A stretch of DNA of 64,000 nt, taken from assembly GCF_030818015.1 (NCBI RefSeq), contig NZ_JAUSZX010000001.1, positions 372,001 to 436,000 of the forward strand. The letters are read 5' to 3'. A program made the translations under genes and the position numbers. Under the pieces are notes generated by a model, which searched no databases, had not been told where the DNA came from, and saw only the letters and a list, made by a program, of their open reading frames with translations. This document shows positions 49,333-63,167 of the stretch, piece by piece (the stretch's first letter is position 1; every line of letters begins with the position of its first letter). Source of the DNA: Arthrobacter globiformis (GTDB lineage: Bacteria > Actinomycetota > Actinomycetes > Actinomycetales > Micrococcaceae).

Positions 49333-49800
49333 TCATGCTCTGAGGTGCTCGAGCAGCGCGTCGAGAATCGGCAGCTGGCCTTTGACCAGCTTGGTGCGGG
49401 CTACGGGTTCGCTGATCCACTCGGCGCGGTCAATCTCGGGGAAGTGCTGGACCGACCCGGACCCCTTGGGCCACTCCAGCGGAAACGTGTTGCTCAGGAT
49501 TTTCTCGGGAGCGAAGGCGGATTCGGCCGTGAATGCGGTGATGAGCTTGCCTGAGGGCTGCCGGAACGTGCCGAGCAGCACATAGTCCGCGGAAGGCGCC
49601 GGGACGCCCATTTCCTCCGCGAACTCACGCTGCGCGGCCGCGAGCGGATCCTCCTCCTCAAGGTACTCGCCCTTGGGAATCGACCAGGCGCGCTCGTCCT
49701 TGCGCTCCCAGAAGGGCCCGCCCATGTGGGCGATCCACACTTCCACTTCCGCCCCGCTGTTCTGCCGATACAGCAGAAGGCCTGCACTCCTGACAGCCAT
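49333..49800 (-). CDS. NUDIX hydrolase
   Basis: 155 residues from ATG 49800 with AGGAGGG ahead; a longer frame upstream belongs to the remnant region. The Nudix box reads G-EYLEE-E-DPLAAAQ-REFAEEMGV, matching GX5EX7REUXEEXGU. Substrate region: VRSAGLLLYRQNSGAEVEVWIAHMGGPFW. Relatives with this N-terminus hydrolyse nucleoside diphosphate compounds; specificity is unknown. Monocistronic. Confidence 0.92.
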   Translation of the reverse strand: MAVRSAGLLLYRQNSGAEVEVWIAHMGGPFWERKDERAWSIPKGEYLEEEDPLAAAQREFAEEMGVPAPSADYVLLGTFRQPSGKLITAFTAESAFAPEKILSNTFPLEWPKGSGSVQHFPEIDRAEWISEPVARTKLVKGQLPILDALLEHLRA

Positions 49801-49820
49801 GTTGCCCTCCTGCCCCAAGG

Positions 49821-50014
49821 CTACCCCCGGGATGCCGGCAAAGACCGGCGGGTGCCGCGTCCGGCGAGCAGAATGGCCGCCACGTTCGTGGCGACGATGA
49901 CCGCCATGCCCAGCCACTCGTGGAATACGAGGAACTGTCCCAGCACGATTGTTCCGGTCGGTCGGTCGCGGCGCTTGAACGCGCCCTCGGGGTGCGCGTT
50001 TTCCAGCGGACGAC
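49821..50014 (-). pseudogene. Remnant of an EamA/DMT transporter (C-terminus only)
   Basis: The minus-strand frame ends GTIVLGQFLVFHEWLGMAVIV then ATNVAAILLAGRG and a stop at 49821, fitting the last two helices of EamA-type transporters. Everything before about 49970 is unlike the family, and at 50014/50015 the sequence switches into a copy of an ABC permease gene. Only ~45-60 of ~300 codons survive. Confidence 0.6.
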
Positions 50015-50243
50015 GGTGACGCAGACGGCGGCGAAGGTTGCGGTCCAGTCGACCTTGCCCATGGCGCCGATGTAGTTCTGCAGGCCCAGCGGAATCGTCT
50101 TCAGTTCCTCTGACAGGACGAAGGTATTGGCGAAGATGAAGTCGTTCCAGATAAAGATGCTGTTGACCAGTACGACTGTTACCACGGTGTTCAGTGACAG
50201 CGGGAGCGTGATCAGCCCGAAGATCCGGTACGGCCCTGCTCCG
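50015..50243 (-). repeat. 229-bp copy of an ABC permease gene fragment (copy 1)
   Basis: Same sequence and orientation as 52382-52610 inside the intact permease gene, with two differences noticed (near 50131 and 50179). It encodes an internal/C-terminal piece of that permease (LNTVVTVVLVNSIFIWNDFI) without start or stop of its own. It ends exactly where the LysR remnant begins, so it looks like filler DNA copied into a deletion. Confidence 0.93.
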
Positions 50244-50460
50244 CCCCGTTCAGGGAGTGGACGACTGGCTGACACTGATCTCCACCGGACAGGCGATGGG
50301 GATGTCCTCGGAGGCGACGGCGACGCAGTACCCGAGGCCCGGTGTGGTCTACAAGGTTGTCCGGGACGCCCCGCCCATTTCCGTGTACCTCGCATACTGG
50401 AAAGACGATCCGTCGGTGCTCATCTCCGACTTTGCCCGCCTGGCGCGGCAAGGCTTATGA
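50244..50460 (+). pseudogene. Remnant of a LysR-family regulator (C-terminus only)
   Basis: In frame from the repeat boundary: RPVQGVDDWLTLISTGQAMGM, then SSEATATQYPRPGVVYKVVRD and APPISVYLAYWKDD, to a stop at 50460. This is the end of a LysR effector domain; about 70 of ~300 codons remain. The HTH and first subdomain are gone. A GTG at 50257 could start a short peptide but it would not be a regulator. The orientation relative to the EamA remnant is that of a divergent LysR/EamA pair whose shared 5' halves have been removed. Confidence 0.8.
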
Positions 50461-50614
50461 CGACGGCGACGCCCGCTGACCGGGGGCGGGCTCCACCGAG
50501 CTTCCTTCCGCGGATCGGGCTTGTTCCGCTGATCGAGATTGTCGAGATCAACGCGCCTTGCCCCGTCCCCTGAGCGGGGGGACACTGGAAAAAACTATGC
50601 GAAAGGAGTTTGTC

Positions 50615-50941
50615 GTGCGCAAGAGAACAGCCTGGATTGTTGGAGCCGCCGTTGCTGCGGTAGCTCTGGGAGGTGCATCGGTTGCAGCCGCTTCCGTCAA
50701 CCCCTTCGACGACGACACGACCACGACCGGTGGCACACAGCAGCCGCTGAACCAGGCCGATCGGGACAAAGCAGTCGACGCCGCAATGGCCAAGGTGGGC
50801 TCCGGGCAGGTTACGGAGGTCGAGCGGGGTGACAGCGCTGGTTCGTCCTATGAAGTGGAGATCCGGAAGAGCGACGGGTCCGAGGTGGAAGTCAACATCG
50901 GCGCCAACTTCCAGGTGCTAAGCCAGGGCGCCGACGACTGA
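50615..50941 (+). CDS. Small exported PepSY-like protein
   Basis: 108 residues from GTG 50615, with AAAGGAG 7 bp ahead (an ATG at 50597 is also in frame). Signal or anchor TAWIVGAAVAAVALGGASVAAA, an acidic/Thr linker, then one PepSY-like domain (ADRDKAVDAAMAKVGSGQVTEVE, SSYEVEIRKSDGSEVEVNIGANFQVL). PepSY domains inhibit peptidases or sense the envelope; the role here is unknown. Stands alone downstream of the remnant block. Confidence 0.8.
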   Translation: MRKRTAWIVGAAVAAVALGGASVAAASVNPFDDDTTTTGGTQQPLNQADRDKAVDAAMAKVGSGQVTEVERGDSAGSSYEVEIRKSDGSEVEVNIGANFQVLSQGADD

Positions 50942-51182
50942 CCGGCGCACGCAGAGCCACGTCGGTCAGCTGTTACCGGGGTGGACGAGGCTGTCGGAGT
51001 CTTGTTGATTTGCCGGTGCGTCTGCGAGTCCCGTCGGCGAAACGTCGAAGTCGTGGATGCTTTGGCGTTCGGTAGTGGCGGGGGAGATGCTGCTGGGAGC
51101 ACATCCTCCAGCACGGGGCCGCCGTGAAAACGGCCGCCGGGATCCTGGCCTTCGCCCGGGACTGACCGGCCGGGATGGGAGG

Positions 51183-52300: not shown

Positions 52301-53200
52301 TCATCCCTTCGTCGCTCCGCTCTCCAGATCCTGGATCATCGCCTTGTTCAGCACGAGGAAGACCAGCAGCAGCGGGGTGATGGTGACGCAGACGGCGGCG
52401 AAGGTTGCGGTCCAGTCGACCTTGCCCATGGCGCCGATGTAGTTCTGCAGGCCCAGCGGAATCGTCTTCAGTTCCTCTGACAGGACGAAGGTGTTGGCGA
52501 AGATGAAGTCGTTCCAGATAAAGATGCTGTTGACCAGTACGACTGTCACCACGGTGTTCAGTGACAGCGGGAGCGTGATCAGCCCGAAGATCCGGTACGG
52601 CCCTGCTCCGTCCAGTGAGGCCGCCTCATATGTTTCCCGGGGGATGTATTCGAAGAACGAGGAGAACAGGTAGACCGACATTGGCAGGGAGAACCCGGCC
52701 AACGGAATGATCATGGACTGGTAGGTGTCGAGCAGGTTCACCGTGGAGTAGTCGATGAACAAGGGCACCAGCGCGATCTGGACGGGAACGATGATGCCGA
52801 TCATGAACAGCCCGCGGACCAGGCGGCTGAGCCGGAAGCCGAGCACCTGGATTGCGTAGGCGGCCATCATGCCCAGCAGTACGATCAGGATGTTCGCGCC
52901 CATTGTGACGATGAAGCTGTTGAGGATATTCCTGCCAAGGTCGCCGGTTTCGAAAGCCCGGGCGTAGTTCTCCCAGGTGAGTGCCTTGGGCAGGCCGAAG
53001 GGGTCCCCGGCGGCGAAGTCGTCTTCGCTGCGAAGACTGGTCAGGAACAGCCAGGCAAGCGGGTAGACCTGGACGATGACGATGAGTGCAACCAGGACGC
53101 GCGACAGGGTCTTGAAGGCGCTCGGCCGCCGGCGCCGCCGGGAGGCTGCCGGAGGGGGCGCCGGGCGGTGGGTGGCGGCGGGTGCTGTCTGGGTGATCAT
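52301..53200 (-). CDS. Carbohydrate ABC transporter permease (MalG-like)
   Basis: 299 residues from ATG 53200, overlapping the upstream permease stop (ATGA). Six membrane segments and the EAA loop EAASLDGAGPYRIFGLITLPLSLNTVV, which docks the shared MsiK-type ATPase. No ATPase gene is in the operon, normal for CUT1 systems in actinobacteria. Works with the permease at 53197 and the binding protein at 54123. A 229-bp part of this gene is duplicated at 50015. Confidence 0.93.
   Translation of the reverse strand: MITQTAPAATHRPAPPPAASRRRRRPSAFKTLSRVLVALIVIVQVYPLAWLFLTSLRSEDDFAAGDPFGLPKALTWENYARAFETGDLGRNILNSFIVTMGANILIVLLGMMAAYAIQVLGFRLSRLVRGLFMIGIIVPVQIALVPLFIDYSTVNLLDTYQSMIIPLAGFSLPMSVYLFSSFFEYIPRETYEAASLDGAGPYRIFGLITLPLSLNTVVTVVLVNSIFIWNDFIFANTFVLSEELKTIPLGLQNYIGAMGKVDWTATFAAVCVTITPLLLVFLVLNKAMIQDLESGATKG
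52382..52610 (-). repeat. 229-bp direct repeat, source copy inside the permease gene
   Basis: The intact copy of the segment found at 50015-50243. Two mismatches noticed in 229 bp. Flanks diverge at once on the right side and within ~6-10 bp on the left. Confidence 0.93.
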
Positions 53201-58782: not shown

Positions 58783-59110
58783 TTTTGCTGACCACTCTTG
58801 GAACTGGTGCTTCCACCTCCGAGACGTGAGTCGCAGCATACGCGCCCCGTAGGCGAGGCGTGTCATCGCAGAGTCATACGAGACTCATACCTGAACCGCT
58901 GGAGCGCCGGAAGACCAACGGTTCGACGGTGCGCGAGGGATGCACCGGTGGTGTCAGGTTGGGGTGTACTTCAAGCTGTTGTTCGGTCAGCTGCAACGGA
59001 CGCCAGTCGCGCAAGCGGCGGGTTTGCAAGACCTGATCAATGAGGCACTAACGGTACTTGTGACGAGGGATCGGGATGTCGTCCATTGACGCTTCCAGCG
59101 CGGTTAGGCG
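58783..59110. other. Intergenic region with one unassigned short frame
   Basis: About 330 bp between the levan fructotransferase and AraC genes, both ending here. A 49-codon plus-strand frame (58940-59089: MHRWCQVGVYFKLLFGQLQR...) has protein-like composition and may be the end of a lost gene, but I do not recognise it. No clear terminator hairpin. Confidence 0.4.
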
Positions 59111-60133
59111 CTAGGGGTTCAGTGACCTCCGCAGTTGTTGCAGTGCCTCATGAACGACGGGCTTGGATCGATGGATCTCCCTCACATTCATCCCGGTAAA
59201 CTCTTTCACTGCACGGCGCATGCTTTGCACATTGGTGAACCCGCACGACGTCGCTATTTCTGAATAGGTGATCCTTTGGGCGCCAGCCTGAAGGAGGAGC
59301 TCGAGGGCTTTGCGCGTTCTCAACGCGCGTATCCGCTCACCCAGGTGGAGTTCTTCATTCTCGAAGAAGTAGAACAGAGAGCGACGGGAGAGGTTGAACC
59401 TTCCAGCGACCATTGCCACATCCAGATTGGGGTTGTCGTAACTGGCTTCAAGGTATTTCTTCACGGCCCGACTTAGGGCCGGTTTCTGCGCCTCATCGTC
59501 GATCGGTGTTTCGAGCAGGGAGCCCACCAGGGTTGCCATCACGGATCGGAGGATGTCTGCTGTTCCCGATGCCTCCCGGTCGATGCCCGGCCGCTTCCAG
59601 CTCATTAGCGCAGGGATCACGAAAGTGCCCACAATTGGGTGCTTTGCGAGGTCAGGCAGACGAAGCAGGGAGCCTAGCGCGGCCTCGCTGATATCCAGGC
59701 TGCTGCGGTCGATGTTGAGCTGCAAGGCATGAAAGCCTTCGGGCGCATCGAAACTTCCGCCCAGCGAGGTATCGATGAACCTGACGGAGCCCGGTGATAC
59801 TGGCTCAGGCACGCCGTTGAGAGAGAGGGTTAGGGCCGGGGCTTTGCGGAAGTAGGCCAGGCGCAGATCCGTGGTGTCGGGATTCGGCGCCCACGAGCCC
59901 AATGCAGGGCCGTTGAACATTTCTATGAGGCTGAAGCCTGACCCGGCGAGATTAATCGCTGAAGGATTGAAGGACACAGGAGTCTGGCGTGCCGACTTTT
60001 CCAACCGCATTGGGGTTTCGACGGCATTACCGTACCAAGCTCGCCAATGTTCGAACCTTTGTTCTGGCTTGAGCCCCTCCGGCACCGCATATCGGCGCAG
60101 GCGGCCGCTGTTCCCGGTAGGGGATTGAGGCAT
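59111..60133 (-). CDS. AraC-family transcriptional regulator
   Basis: 340 residues. The N-terminal ~215 residues resemble the AraC-type ligand/dimer domain of the feruloyl-esterase/NahR-associated kind (FRKAPALTLSLNG; SVRFIDTSLGGSFDAPEG). The C-terminal double HTH is ~235-325 (VAMVAGRFNLSRRSLFYFFENEELHLGERIRALRTRKALELL; ITYSEIATSCGFTNVQSMRRAVKEFTGM). Lower GC than the surrounding genes, and no metabolic gene is adjacent in the same direction, so target and effector are open; it may have come in with the levan gene. Confidence 0.85.
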   Translation of the reverse strand: MPQSPTGNSGRLRRYAVPEGLKPEQRFEHWRAWYGNAVETPMRLEKSARQTPVSFNPSAINLAGSGFSLIEMFNGPALGSWAPNPDTTDLRLAYFRKAPALTLSLNGVPEPVSPGSVRFIDTSLGGSFDAPEGFHALQLNIDRSSLDISEAALGSLLRLPDLAKHPIVGTFVIPALMSWKRPGIDREASGTADILRSVMATLVGSLLETPIDDEAQKPALSRAVKKYLEASYDNPNLDVAMVAGRFNLSRRSLFYFFENEELHLGERIRALRTRKALELLLQAGAQRITYSEIATSCGFTNVQSMRRAVKEFTGMNVREIHRSKPVVHEALQQLRRSLNP

Positions 60134-60443
60134 GCCATCCTCCTTTTCACCAGCTGAACCTTCATGGCGGCCATGGGAGTGGCGACTACGTCTTGAGCAA
60201 GCGGTTGCGGTGGCTCATAAGGATGGCCAGAAAGGACCTCAGCTGTTGGGTCTATTTTACCTGTGTACGTTGTTGATTGGTGCGTCGATGGCTTTGGTGC
60301 CGGCGCCCCACATGACCGGTATGGGCCACCGCCTTGGCCCGGGCGAGTATGCCGTTGGATAGGCAAGGGCTGGGAGAAACGATGCTATTCGCCACTCCAC
60401 ACCCTGGCGTGCCTGTCTTCGACATCTTCGTTGGGATACGTGG
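60134..60443. other. Intergenic region, no gene seen
   Basis: About 310 bp between the AraC start and the ROK stop. A 76-codon plus-strand frame exists opposite but shows no family likeness. It must hold the AraC promoter; GGTCTATTTTACC near 60248 is the most AT-rich stretch. No terminator hairpin recognised for the ROK gene. Confidence 0.5.
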
Positions 60444-61718
60444 TCAAGGAAATGCGGGGTGCAATTGTTCGGCCACGGCGTCACGGAGCGGCCGGGATGT
60501 TTGGGCGATGTGCTCCACGTTCTGCAGATCGTCGCTATTTTGCTGTCCGCCTGGATGCAGCCTGGTCGCGAAATCATTGACTCGTTGAGGGGCGAGGGCA
60601 TATTCGACAGCCAAGATGCTGGCCCCAACCACTCCCGCTTCCGGGCCGGTTTCGGATTGGGTGATATTCAGGTACTGGGTGGCCAACGGCGTTGAGCGTG
60701 CATAAACCGTTTCACGGATTCCGGCGATCAGATGTTCTCCGGATTGGGCAAGCGATCCGCCGACGACAATAAGGGAAGGGTTGATGAGGCTCACGCACAT
60801 GTTGAGCATTTCTCCGATGTCGCGGCCAGCCTGCCGGACGGCTTGAATAGCAGCCAAATCGCCGGAACGAACGAGCGAGACGACGTCGTTTGCGGTGGTT
60901 GCTTCGAGTCCGTTTTCTCGGAGCTGGGCGGCGACGGCCGGAGCGCCTGCGATGGCTTCCAGACAGGAGGTCTTGCCACAGCGGCATTGAATTCCTGCCG
61001 CCTTGGAAACGGCAATATGACCGACGTCTCCTGCGACTCCTGCCGCGCCTCGCTGCAATATTCCTCCACTGATAACGCCCGAGCCGATGCCGGTGGCGAC
61101 TTTAAGGAAGATCATGTTGTCCTCGTTGGGCCAGCGTGTAGCCCGCTCGCCGAGGGCCATGATGTTGACATCGTTGTCGACGAGTACAGGAACGTCAAAG
61201 GTCTGCTGAACGTAAGCGGGGACATCGAATCCGTCCCATCCCGGCATGATCGGAGGGCTGGTCGGCTTTCCGGTGGAGTGTTCCACGGGACCGGGCAGCC
61301 CGATGCCAACAGCGATGATGTCGGTTGCCGGACGCTTCACCGTTTTCAAATGACCCTGCAGCGTCATCGCTAGCCAGTCCAGAACAGCTTCCGGTCCGCA
61401 GGAAATCTCAAGTCGTTCAGTTGTTTCCAGGAGAACCCTTCCCGACAGGTCCGTGAGAGCCACGGTCGCGTGTGTGGCGCCGACGTCGGCGGCAGCGACC
61501 AGCCTTGCACCGGGGTTGAAGGCTAGTCGCGCCGAGGGGCGGCCTCCAGTGGAAGGCGCATCCGACACCGGTGCAACTAGTCCGAGTTCCAGGAGCGCCT
61601 CGAGACGAGAACTGATGGCAGCTCGCCCCAAGCCCGTTATCCCGGCCAGGTCGGCCCTGGTTCGCGGGCGTCCGTCCCGCAGGATGCGCAAAAGTTCGCC
61701 GGCGCCGCCGTTGTTCAT
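60444..61718 (-). CDS. ROK-family transcriptional regulator
   Basis: 424 residues. N-terminal winged HTH ~5-65 (LLRILRDGRPRTRADLAGITGLGRAAISSRLEALLELG), then the ROK sugar-kinase-like domain (AAADVGATHATVALTDLSG; VGIGLPGPVEHSTGKP; VLVDNDVNIMALGE). The zinc motif CRCGKTSCLEA with the His in GDVGHIAVS is present. The C-terminal ~50 residues are an unusual extension. It is divergent from the Gfo/Idh-ABC operon starting at 61969, with two direct repeats between, so it probably represses that operon until a sugar binds. Confidence 0.9.
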   Translation of the reverse strand: MNNGGAGELLRILRDGRPRTRADLAGITGLGRAAISSRLEALLELGLVAPVSDAPSTGGRPSARLAFNPGARLVAAADVGATHATVALTDLSGRVLLETTERLEISCGPEAVLDWLAMTLQGHLKTVKRPATDIIAVGIGLPGPVEHSTGKPTSPPIMPGWDGFDVPAYVQQTFDVPVLVDNDVNIMALGERATRWPNEDNMIFLKVATGIGSGVISGGILQRGAAGVAGDVGHIAVSKAAGIQCRCGKTSCLEAIAGAPAVAAQLRENGLEATTANDVVSLVRSGDLAAIQAVRQAGRDIGEMLNMCVSLINPSLIVVGGSLAQSGEHLIAGIRETVYARSTPLATQYLNITQSETGPEAGVVGASILAVEYALAPQRVNDFATRLHPGGQQNSDDLQNVEHIAQTSRPLRDAVAEQLHPAFP

Positions 61719-61856
61719 TTTTCTCCGTTTCGGGGCTCAAAAGAGGTGAGTGATGAGCGCGAGGTCTTGACACATCACGCTCACAGGACCCCGAGGGGAC
61801 CTTATCTCCACTCAGTGTCAAGGCGCCCACTCGTTCCCGTCCACTCGTCGATGCCC

Positions 61857-61916
61857 ACAGCATCAAAAAGTGCAACTTCCTTGCGCGTTCCGTCGCCAAC
61901 AGCGTCAAAAGGTGCA
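61857..61916. promoter_or_regulatory. Paired direct repeats, candidate ROK operators
   Basis: ACAGCATCAAAAAGTGCA (61857-61874) and ACAGCGTCAAAAGGTGCA (61899-61916) match at 16 of 18 positions and are spaced 42 bp start to start, close to four helical turns. They lie in the gap between the divergent ROK and Gfo/Idh genes, nearer the latter. The same-face spacing suits a regulator bound as a pair of dimers. Confidence 0.65.
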
Positions 61917-61968
61917 GACTTTTGCGGCTGACTGACTAAAGCCACGAGGTGCGTGTCACTGTTTCGGC

Positions 61969-63102
61969 ATGGAAAACGACAGAACCACAACAGCCCCTTC
62001 CCGGTTACGGGCCGGGTTCGTCGGTGCCGGGTTCATGGCTGAGGTGCATAGCAGAGCCGCCCGTGCCGCAGGGGCGGAAATCGCCGGTATCGCGTCCTCG
62101 AGCCCTGCCAGTGCCGCACGCGTCAAAGACCGTCTGGGCGTCGAGCAGGCTTACGCCTCTGTCCAGGACCTCGTCCAGGACGACAGGATCGACGTCATCC
62201 ACGTCTGCACCCCGAACGCCACCCACGTCGCACTGGCCGAGGCAGCGCTGAAAGCAGGCAAGCACGTTGTCTGTGAGAAGCCTCTGGCTACCACCGTGCA
62301 GGATGCCACCCATCTGGTGGAGCTGGCCGCTACGGCCGGGGCGGTCGCGACCGTTCCCTTCGTCTACCGGTTCCACCCGATGGTCCGGGAAGCCCGGGAA
62401 CGCATTGCGTCCGGCCAGACGGGACGGATCTCTACTATCCAGGGGTCCTATCTTCAGGACTGGCTGCTGTCCCGGAACGACGATAACTGGCGGGTGGACG
62501 CCGGTGTCGGTGGCCCTTCGCGGGCGTTCGCCGACATCGGGTCCCACCTGTGCGATCTCCTCGAATTCGTGAGCGGGGAACGGATAACACGGGTCGGTGC
62601 ACTGAGCCGCACTCTCTTCTCAGGCCGGGCAAACCACAAGGACATCCAGACGGAGGACCTCGTTGCGGCTGTATTCGCGACTGGGAACGGCACCGTGGGA
62701 AATCTGCTGGTCAGCCAGGTTGCGCCTGGGCGGAAGAACCGCCTGATGATCGAGATTTCGGGTTCTGAGAGCACGGTCCAGTTCGACCAGGAGGCGCCGG
62801 AGACGTTGTGGCTTGGTAAACGGGCCGGTTCCCAACTGCTTGTCCGCGACCCAGACGCGCTTAGCCCCGAAGCGGCACGGCTCAGTGTCCTACCGGCAGG
62901 GCATCCCCAGGGTTATCAGGATGCGTTCAATGCATTTGTCGCCGATACCTATGCCGCAATCAACGGAGACAACCGCGATGGCCTGCCTACCTTCCGTGAC
63001 GGCCTCAGGTCAGCCGTCCTTACCGAAAGCATCATCGAATCCAGCAAGTGCGGCGAGTGGGTCGACGTCCCAGACGTGAAAGAACTAGAAGGAGTGCAGT
63101 AA
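61969..63102 (+). CDS. Gfo/Idh/MocA family oxidoreductase
   Basis: 377 residues from ATG 61969; the ribosome site is weak. Rossmann motif GAGFMAEVHSRAARAAGAE, VICTP-like HVCTPNATHVALAEAAL, catalytic-loop CEKPLATTVQDATHLVE and C-terminal GGPSRAFADIGSHLCDLLEFVSGE with the conserved Asp and His. NAD(P)-dependent sugar oxidation. First gene of an operon whose third gene is an ABC sugar-binding protein. Its stop overlaps the start of a truncated second copy of the family. Confidence 0.92.
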   Translation: MENDRTTTAPSRLRAGFVGAGFMAEVHSRAARAAGAEIAGIASSSPASAARVKDRLGVEQAYASVQDLVQDDRIDVIHVCTPNATHVALAEAALKAGKHVVCEKPLATTVQDATHLVELAATAGAVATVPFVYRFHPMVREARERIASGQTGRISTIQGSYLQDWLLSRNDDNWRVDAGVGGPSRAFADIGSHLCDLLEFVSGERITRVGALSRTLFSGRANHKDIQTEDLVAAVFATGNGTVGNLLVSQVAPGRKNRLMIEISGSESTVQFDQEAPETLWLGKRAGSQLLVRDPDALSPEAARLSVLPAGHPQGYQDAFNAFVADTYAAINGDNRDGLPTFRDGLRSAVLTESIIESSKCGEWVDVPDVKELEGVQ

Positions 63103-63167
63103 TGAAAATCATCCAGGTAGGCCTCGGCGCATGGGGCGCCCATGGCTTAAGGAAGGCAGTAGGATGA
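63102..63167 (+). pseudogene. 21-codon remnant of a second Gfo/Idh/MocA oxidoreductase
   Basis: The ATG overlaps the stop of the upstream gene by 1 bp (TAATG), with AAGGAG ahead. The frame reads MKIIQVGLGAWGAHG, a typical Gfo/Idh Rossmann start, then turns into non-family sequence and stops at 63167, overlapping the start of the binding-protein gene. Some 330-350 codons appear deleted. The fused end (AAGGAAGGCAGTAGG) supplies the ribosome site of the next gene. Confidence 0.7.

Follow-up and report, generated by a model that had tools for sequence, protein, structure and literature searches.

How did a segment from the interior of an ABC permease gene come to lie between the remnants of a divergent transporter/regulator pair on the chromosome of Arthrobacter globiformis? 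The window, that is the whole 64-kb stretch of DNA analysed here (G000:C1:372001-436000), lies on a 4.94-Mb contig (C1) of a genome assembled in three contigs and 99.91% complete. It was compared with a genus-wide set of 206 genomes, its own genome counted in. Four relatives carried the intact pair: Arthrobacter sp. ISL-65 (L033, genome G138), L034 (genome G129), Arthrobacter sp. AFG20 (L035, genome G174) and A. globiformis NBRC 12137 (L036, genome G156).

In all four, a divergent EamA/LysR pair was flanked by the NUDIX gene and the small gene that also flank the scar. The intact EamA transporter had 307 residues and the LysR frame was open over 296-299 codons; a Pfam search on the pair of one relative returned PF00892 for EamA and PF00126 plus PF03466 for LysR. 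An EamA-side query was matched in 27 of the 206 genomes, own genome included, and its EamA part was nearly fully matched (88-92%) only in these four relatives, own genome aside. Three other relatives (L037-L039) had the same neighbour genes and no EamA/LysR pair at this site, and the pair is therefore dispensable. The following pieces were found in the window:

49333..49803, minus strand: intact NUDIX gene, the left synteny anchor (PF00293; aligned in L033-L039)
49821..49957, minus strand: EamA stub, 44 C-terminal residues plus the stop codon from a transporter of 307 residues (comparison with relatives; PF00892 in an intact relative)
49959..50015, plus strand: LysR island of 57 bp, RSVAALERALGVRVFQRTT, codons 47-65 of the 296-codon ORF of L034 (comparison with relatives)
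50015..50243, minus strand, orientation as in the source: filler, a copy of the permease segment 52382-52610 (sequence comparison)
50239..50448, plus strand: LysR C-terminal stub, 70 codons (comparison with relatives)
50615..50941, plus strand: small gene with no Pfam match, the right synteny anchor (alignment, Pfam search)

From left to right, the EamA stub is followed by a loss of 961-962 bp (made up, in L034, of 787 bp from EamA, the 36 bp that separate the two start codons, and 138 bp from LysR), the 57-bp LysR island, the permease copy in place of 465 bp of LysR, and the LysR C-terminus. An interval of 1,483-1,484 bp in the relatives thus measures 281 bp here. This comparison directly shows which parent sequences are present, in what order and orientation they lie, what lengths were lost and which bases form the junctions. 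The original prediction had taken the two C-terminal stubs for those of a divergent pair and had put the loss at about 1.4 kb. The search for an intact pair in relatives succeeded four times at the same syntenic place and confirmed the stubs, and the two measured losses came close to the estimate. The claimed near-copy of 229 bp was recovered as well, in direct orientation. It had been placed exactly between the stubs; its position was correct, but the LysR island had been missed, and this island makes the scar compound.

Relocation of the lost DNA elsewhere in the genome was considered and rejected: when the 1,485-bp interval of A. globiformis NBRC 12137 was searched against the genome (E up to 0.001), only the 57-bp island was matched. 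A Pfam search of the 70-residue LysR stub alone gave no match, and this stub bears a private 1-bp insertion near its end. Private changes, defined as differences between the window and the four pair-bearing relatives, fell at third codon positions in 4 of 6 cases in the EamA stub, 2 of 2 in the island and 3 of 5 in the LysR stub (9 of 13 in total), a share similar to that in the intact NUDIX gene (7 of 12). These small numbers suggest that the EamA/LysR pair was under selection until recently, and a recent deletion with a copy-type filler is the best reading of the scar. To its right, positions 50504-50550 resemble by eye a dispersed repeat of the REP type, with many short matches in other genomes of the genus; this repeat is also present in L037, one of the relatives without the pair.

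The donor of the filler was sought in the window and in the genome:

52301..53200, minus strand: source gene, ABC permease (BPD_transp_1; Pfam)
52382..52610, minus strand: source segment of the filler (sequence comparison)

Filler and source segment are identical at 227 of 229 bases and form a direct repeat with an offset of 2367, the source segment lying 2.1 kb from the filler on the same chromosome. This was the sole repeat of at least 40 nt reported within the window. An element with inverted ends was also considered and rejected, the sole inverted pair being elsewhere (51915/54663) and none reaching 40 nt in the window. When positions 49801-50560 were searched against the own genome, the region matched itself and, over 238 bp (98%), the source; beyond these there was a single match, of 25 bp (96%), to part of the filler. 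The 76-residue protein read from the filler matched BPD_transp_1 only below the curated cut-off. The permease gene itself is intact, so that the template was retained; since the source gene is still in place, the event copied the segment and did not move it. The gene is accompanied by a LacI-type regulator, a solute-binding protein and a GH32 hydrolase, in what is a fructan-type sugar cluster.

The two differences between copy and source were examined in 21 ortholog rows (19 genomes, of which G071 and G001 were each counted twice). At position 50126 the source base was present in 20 of the 21 rows; at 50180 the C of the source was present in 10 and G in 11, and the T of the copy in none. The cluster of A. 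globiformis NBRC 12137 had the source state at both positions. Both differences are therefore best placed, judging by these base states, on the copy side. The best ortholog reached 93% identity, against 99% for the copy; the copy is thus far closer to the source permease than to any ortholog seen and, given the base states, was derived from this gene or from a near-identical one.

As the LysR island separates the EamA stub from the filler, the scar has three junctions instead of two, and the product runs from EamA to LysR, permease and LysR again:

49954..49966, plus strand: junction J1, EamA CCGG up to 49957, an unmatched T at 49958 and LysR from 49959; the run reads CCGGTCGGTCGGT
50015, plus strand: junction J2, with 1 bp (G) common to LysR and permease
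50239..50243, plus strand: junction J3, with CTCCG common to permease and LysR

The CTCCG of J3 was found in the LysR gene of three of the four relatives, L034 having TTCCG. At J1, the T at 49958 belongs to neither parent, all four relatives having A in EamA and G in LysR at this point. CCGG in EamA and CGG in LysR were each present in three of the four, and J1 can be read in two ways: a single base was added, or EamA CCGG met LysR CGG and one extra TCGG unit was inserted. Random joins of the same parents shared at least 5 bp (the length of J3) in 0.8% of cases, at least 4 bp at J1 in 2.7-2.9% and at least 1 bp at J2 in 47%. Microhomology, as judged from these letters, is clear at J3, possible at J1 and uninformative at J2. 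The sharp right boundary announced by the original prediction was found to be sharp to within the five common bases of J3, and the microhomology of 1-6 bp that it had proposed to look for was present at J3, reduced to a single base at J2 and ambiguous at J1. Its reading as templated filler in a deletion is upheld by the four relatives and by the copy of the nearby permease; its choice of end joining is one of two candidate mechanisms, the other being replicative template switching.

We place about even confidence in a recent repair or replication error in this lineage, made by microhomology-primed template switching (MMBIR-like). A strand ending in EamA would have resumed 0.96 kb further on in LysR and, after 57 bp there, jumped a further 2.6 kb or so into the permease gene, copied 229 bp of it and returned into LysR at the common CTCCG. 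We infer that all three junctions came from one event and that the patch stems from microhomology-primed synthesis, no captured fragment having been ligated in. Such synthesis fits because the copy is direct, because its source lies close by and is intact, and because five bases, a length rare among random joins, are common to both parents at one join at least. It is also consistent with four relatives having the pair intact at this site, with J1 in its reading as CGG/CCGG plus a slipped TCGG unit, with the bases common among orthologs at 50126 and 50180 being in the source and not in the copy, and with the identity of 99% against 93% for the best ortholog. On the other side, J2 has only the one base expected by chance in nearly half of the joins, J1 may be one added base without homology, which would suit end joining equally, and the two deletions may have arisen separately. 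For E. coli, template switching with Pol I as the polymerase has been proposed (PMC5542668, available text), and a yeast MMBIR case had 0-6 nt of homology at its joins (PMC9657218, available text). However, a survey of junctions of gut transfer events assigned NHEJ and alt-EJ and, in its available text, reported no FoSTeS/MMBIR (PMC11317153).

The presence of end-joining genes also speaks against template switching. The genome encodes Ku (PF02735, C1:728108-728638) and, about 1.2 kb apart, LigD, called from its N-terminal domain PF13298 alone (C1:726676-726912), so that end joining with captured fragments is possible. A double-strand break would have been trimmed, and 57 bp of LysR and 229 bp of permease, from the sister chromosome or from another cell, would have been ligated in by Ku/LigD or by alternative end joining. 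J1 and J2 require no microhomology. However, J3 has its five common base pairs, the intact and nearby source permease suits copying, and the titles and abstract openings of the literature contained no insert of the 200-bp class made by bacterial NHEJ. We consider this explanation unlikely, though a serious competitor.

A history of two or more independent events is improbable in our view. Short-patch double illegitimate recombination (SPDIR) replaces local DNA by a short ectopic segment through two microhomology joins, from a single-stranded donor, and its patches are mostly shorter than this 229-bp copy. The 962-bp deletion would have come first, and an SPDIR patch from short single-stranded permease DNA, the cell's own or taken up, would later have taken the place of 465 bp in the LysR gene, by then dead. 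The replacement bounded by J2 and J3 is two-edged, as in SPDIR patches, and the DNA-uptake channel family PF03772 is present. However, this family was also found in 10 of 14 control genomes, including E. coli, and is therefore weak evidence of competence; the patch is long for SPDIR, and two rare events would be needed 57 bp apart.

The scar also has an accessory block as its neighbour. The sequence that follows the small gene in the relatives was found about 50 kb further on here (C1:473456-479894), which places the source permease within a block of about 50 kb. This block extends over G000:C1:423,097 to 473,446 (right end at about 101,446 in window numbering), has its left edge between about 50,943 and 51,097, 0.7-0.9 kb from the filler, and was absent at this site from L033-L035 and L037-L039. 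In A. globiformis NBRC 12137, homology reaches 51,097 and no further, the contig terminates shortly beyond this point, and the strain's copy of the sugar cluster is on another contig; since homology breaks off there, insertions may have a hot spot at this site. Judged by eye from its ORFs, the block holds metabolic genes of sugar and amino-acid type. Positions 58953-63150 were found in G157 at a distant place (C1:4997441-5001640, 89%); G174 and G156 have them on other contigs, and with this scatter the block looks mosaic. At its left edge, a short plus-strand frame at 51098-51182, ending in ...AVKTAAGILAFARD and a stop, appears by eye to be the tail of another truncated gene. A tRNA-borne island was considered and rejected, as 60 kb searched with ARAGORN yielded no tRNA. 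If the donor was the source permease, the cell already had the cluster when the filler was made. It is conceivable, if doubtful, that one replicative event with three template switches was set off by, or occurred with, the landing of the block. Should this be true, the scar would be a natural bacterial counterpart of eukaryotic templated break-repair insertions, and patches of this kind would go along with the gain of islands in Arthrobacter and would lend themselves to a genome-wide count.

An assembly chimera, the alternative named in the original prediction, would mean that the assembler had joined a permease fragment into the pair. A 36-bp pattern across J2 was found, with up to three mismatches, in only one of the 206 genomes, namely the own genome itself, which would suit a chimera. 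The scar was also sought in other species, an exact 23-bp pattern having no match in a genome-contig collection that may omit this genome. Against a chimera, the locus is on a single 4.94-Mb contig of a nearly complete genome, the permease copy has two private differences, the adjoining LysR stub has its private insertion, and one of the three junctions lies inside LysR without involvement of the repeat. Judged from the assembled sequence, a chimera is very unlikely. A functional hybrid gene or conserved element arisen at the scar is hardly credible: a 245-codon frame (49658-50395, minus strand) does cross the filler in the permease frame, but it joins four unrelated stretches and overlaps the NUDIX gene, and the junction, found in one genome, is no arrangement common to several. 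No function of the scar is evident. Gene finders may predict a false hybrid protein from the 245-codon frame.

For the organism, the event amounts to no more than losing one transporter/regulator pair, which is missing from three other relatives too, and its interest is mainly for students of bacterial DNA-repair errors. To our knowledge, templated patches in natural bacterial chromosomes have seldom been resolved to the base with both parents at hand. In the titles and abstract openings of the literature, no naturally occurring patch of comparable length was mentioned for a bacterial chromosome, although this does not prove absence. The pair being intact in four relatives and the donor lying 2.1 kb away, the case can be the model entry when scars of this sort are counted genome-wide in actinobacteria bearing Ku and LigD. 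It is a well-resolved repair scar and a fresh example of an already known kind of event.

Among known systems, SPDIR resembles the scar in that an ectopic segment replaces local DNA, here with a left join of 1 bp and a right join of 5 bp; it differs by the second deletion, of 962 bp, beside the patch. The likeness to bacterial Ku/LigD and alternative end joining consists in the presence of the core genes and in J1 and J2, which could be blunt or single-base joins, whereas LigD is described as combining end processing, base addition and ligation, and a 229-bp copied insert is absent from the available text of that description (PMC7719229). Eukaryotic filler DNA at break sites, such as numts (PMC2567098), likewise fills a deletion with foreign or ectopic DNA; here, in contrast, the setting is a bacterial chromosome and the source is 2.1 kb away on the same molecule. 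With MMBIR/FoSTeS the scar shares several junctions, short islands of differing origin and little or no homology at the joins (PMC9657218, available text). Unlike in those systems, it is known from its product alone, and both the single event and the polymerase are inferred. If the event was single, its three junctions record at least the two template switches per product that characterise this class, and the intact permease shows copying with the template kept.
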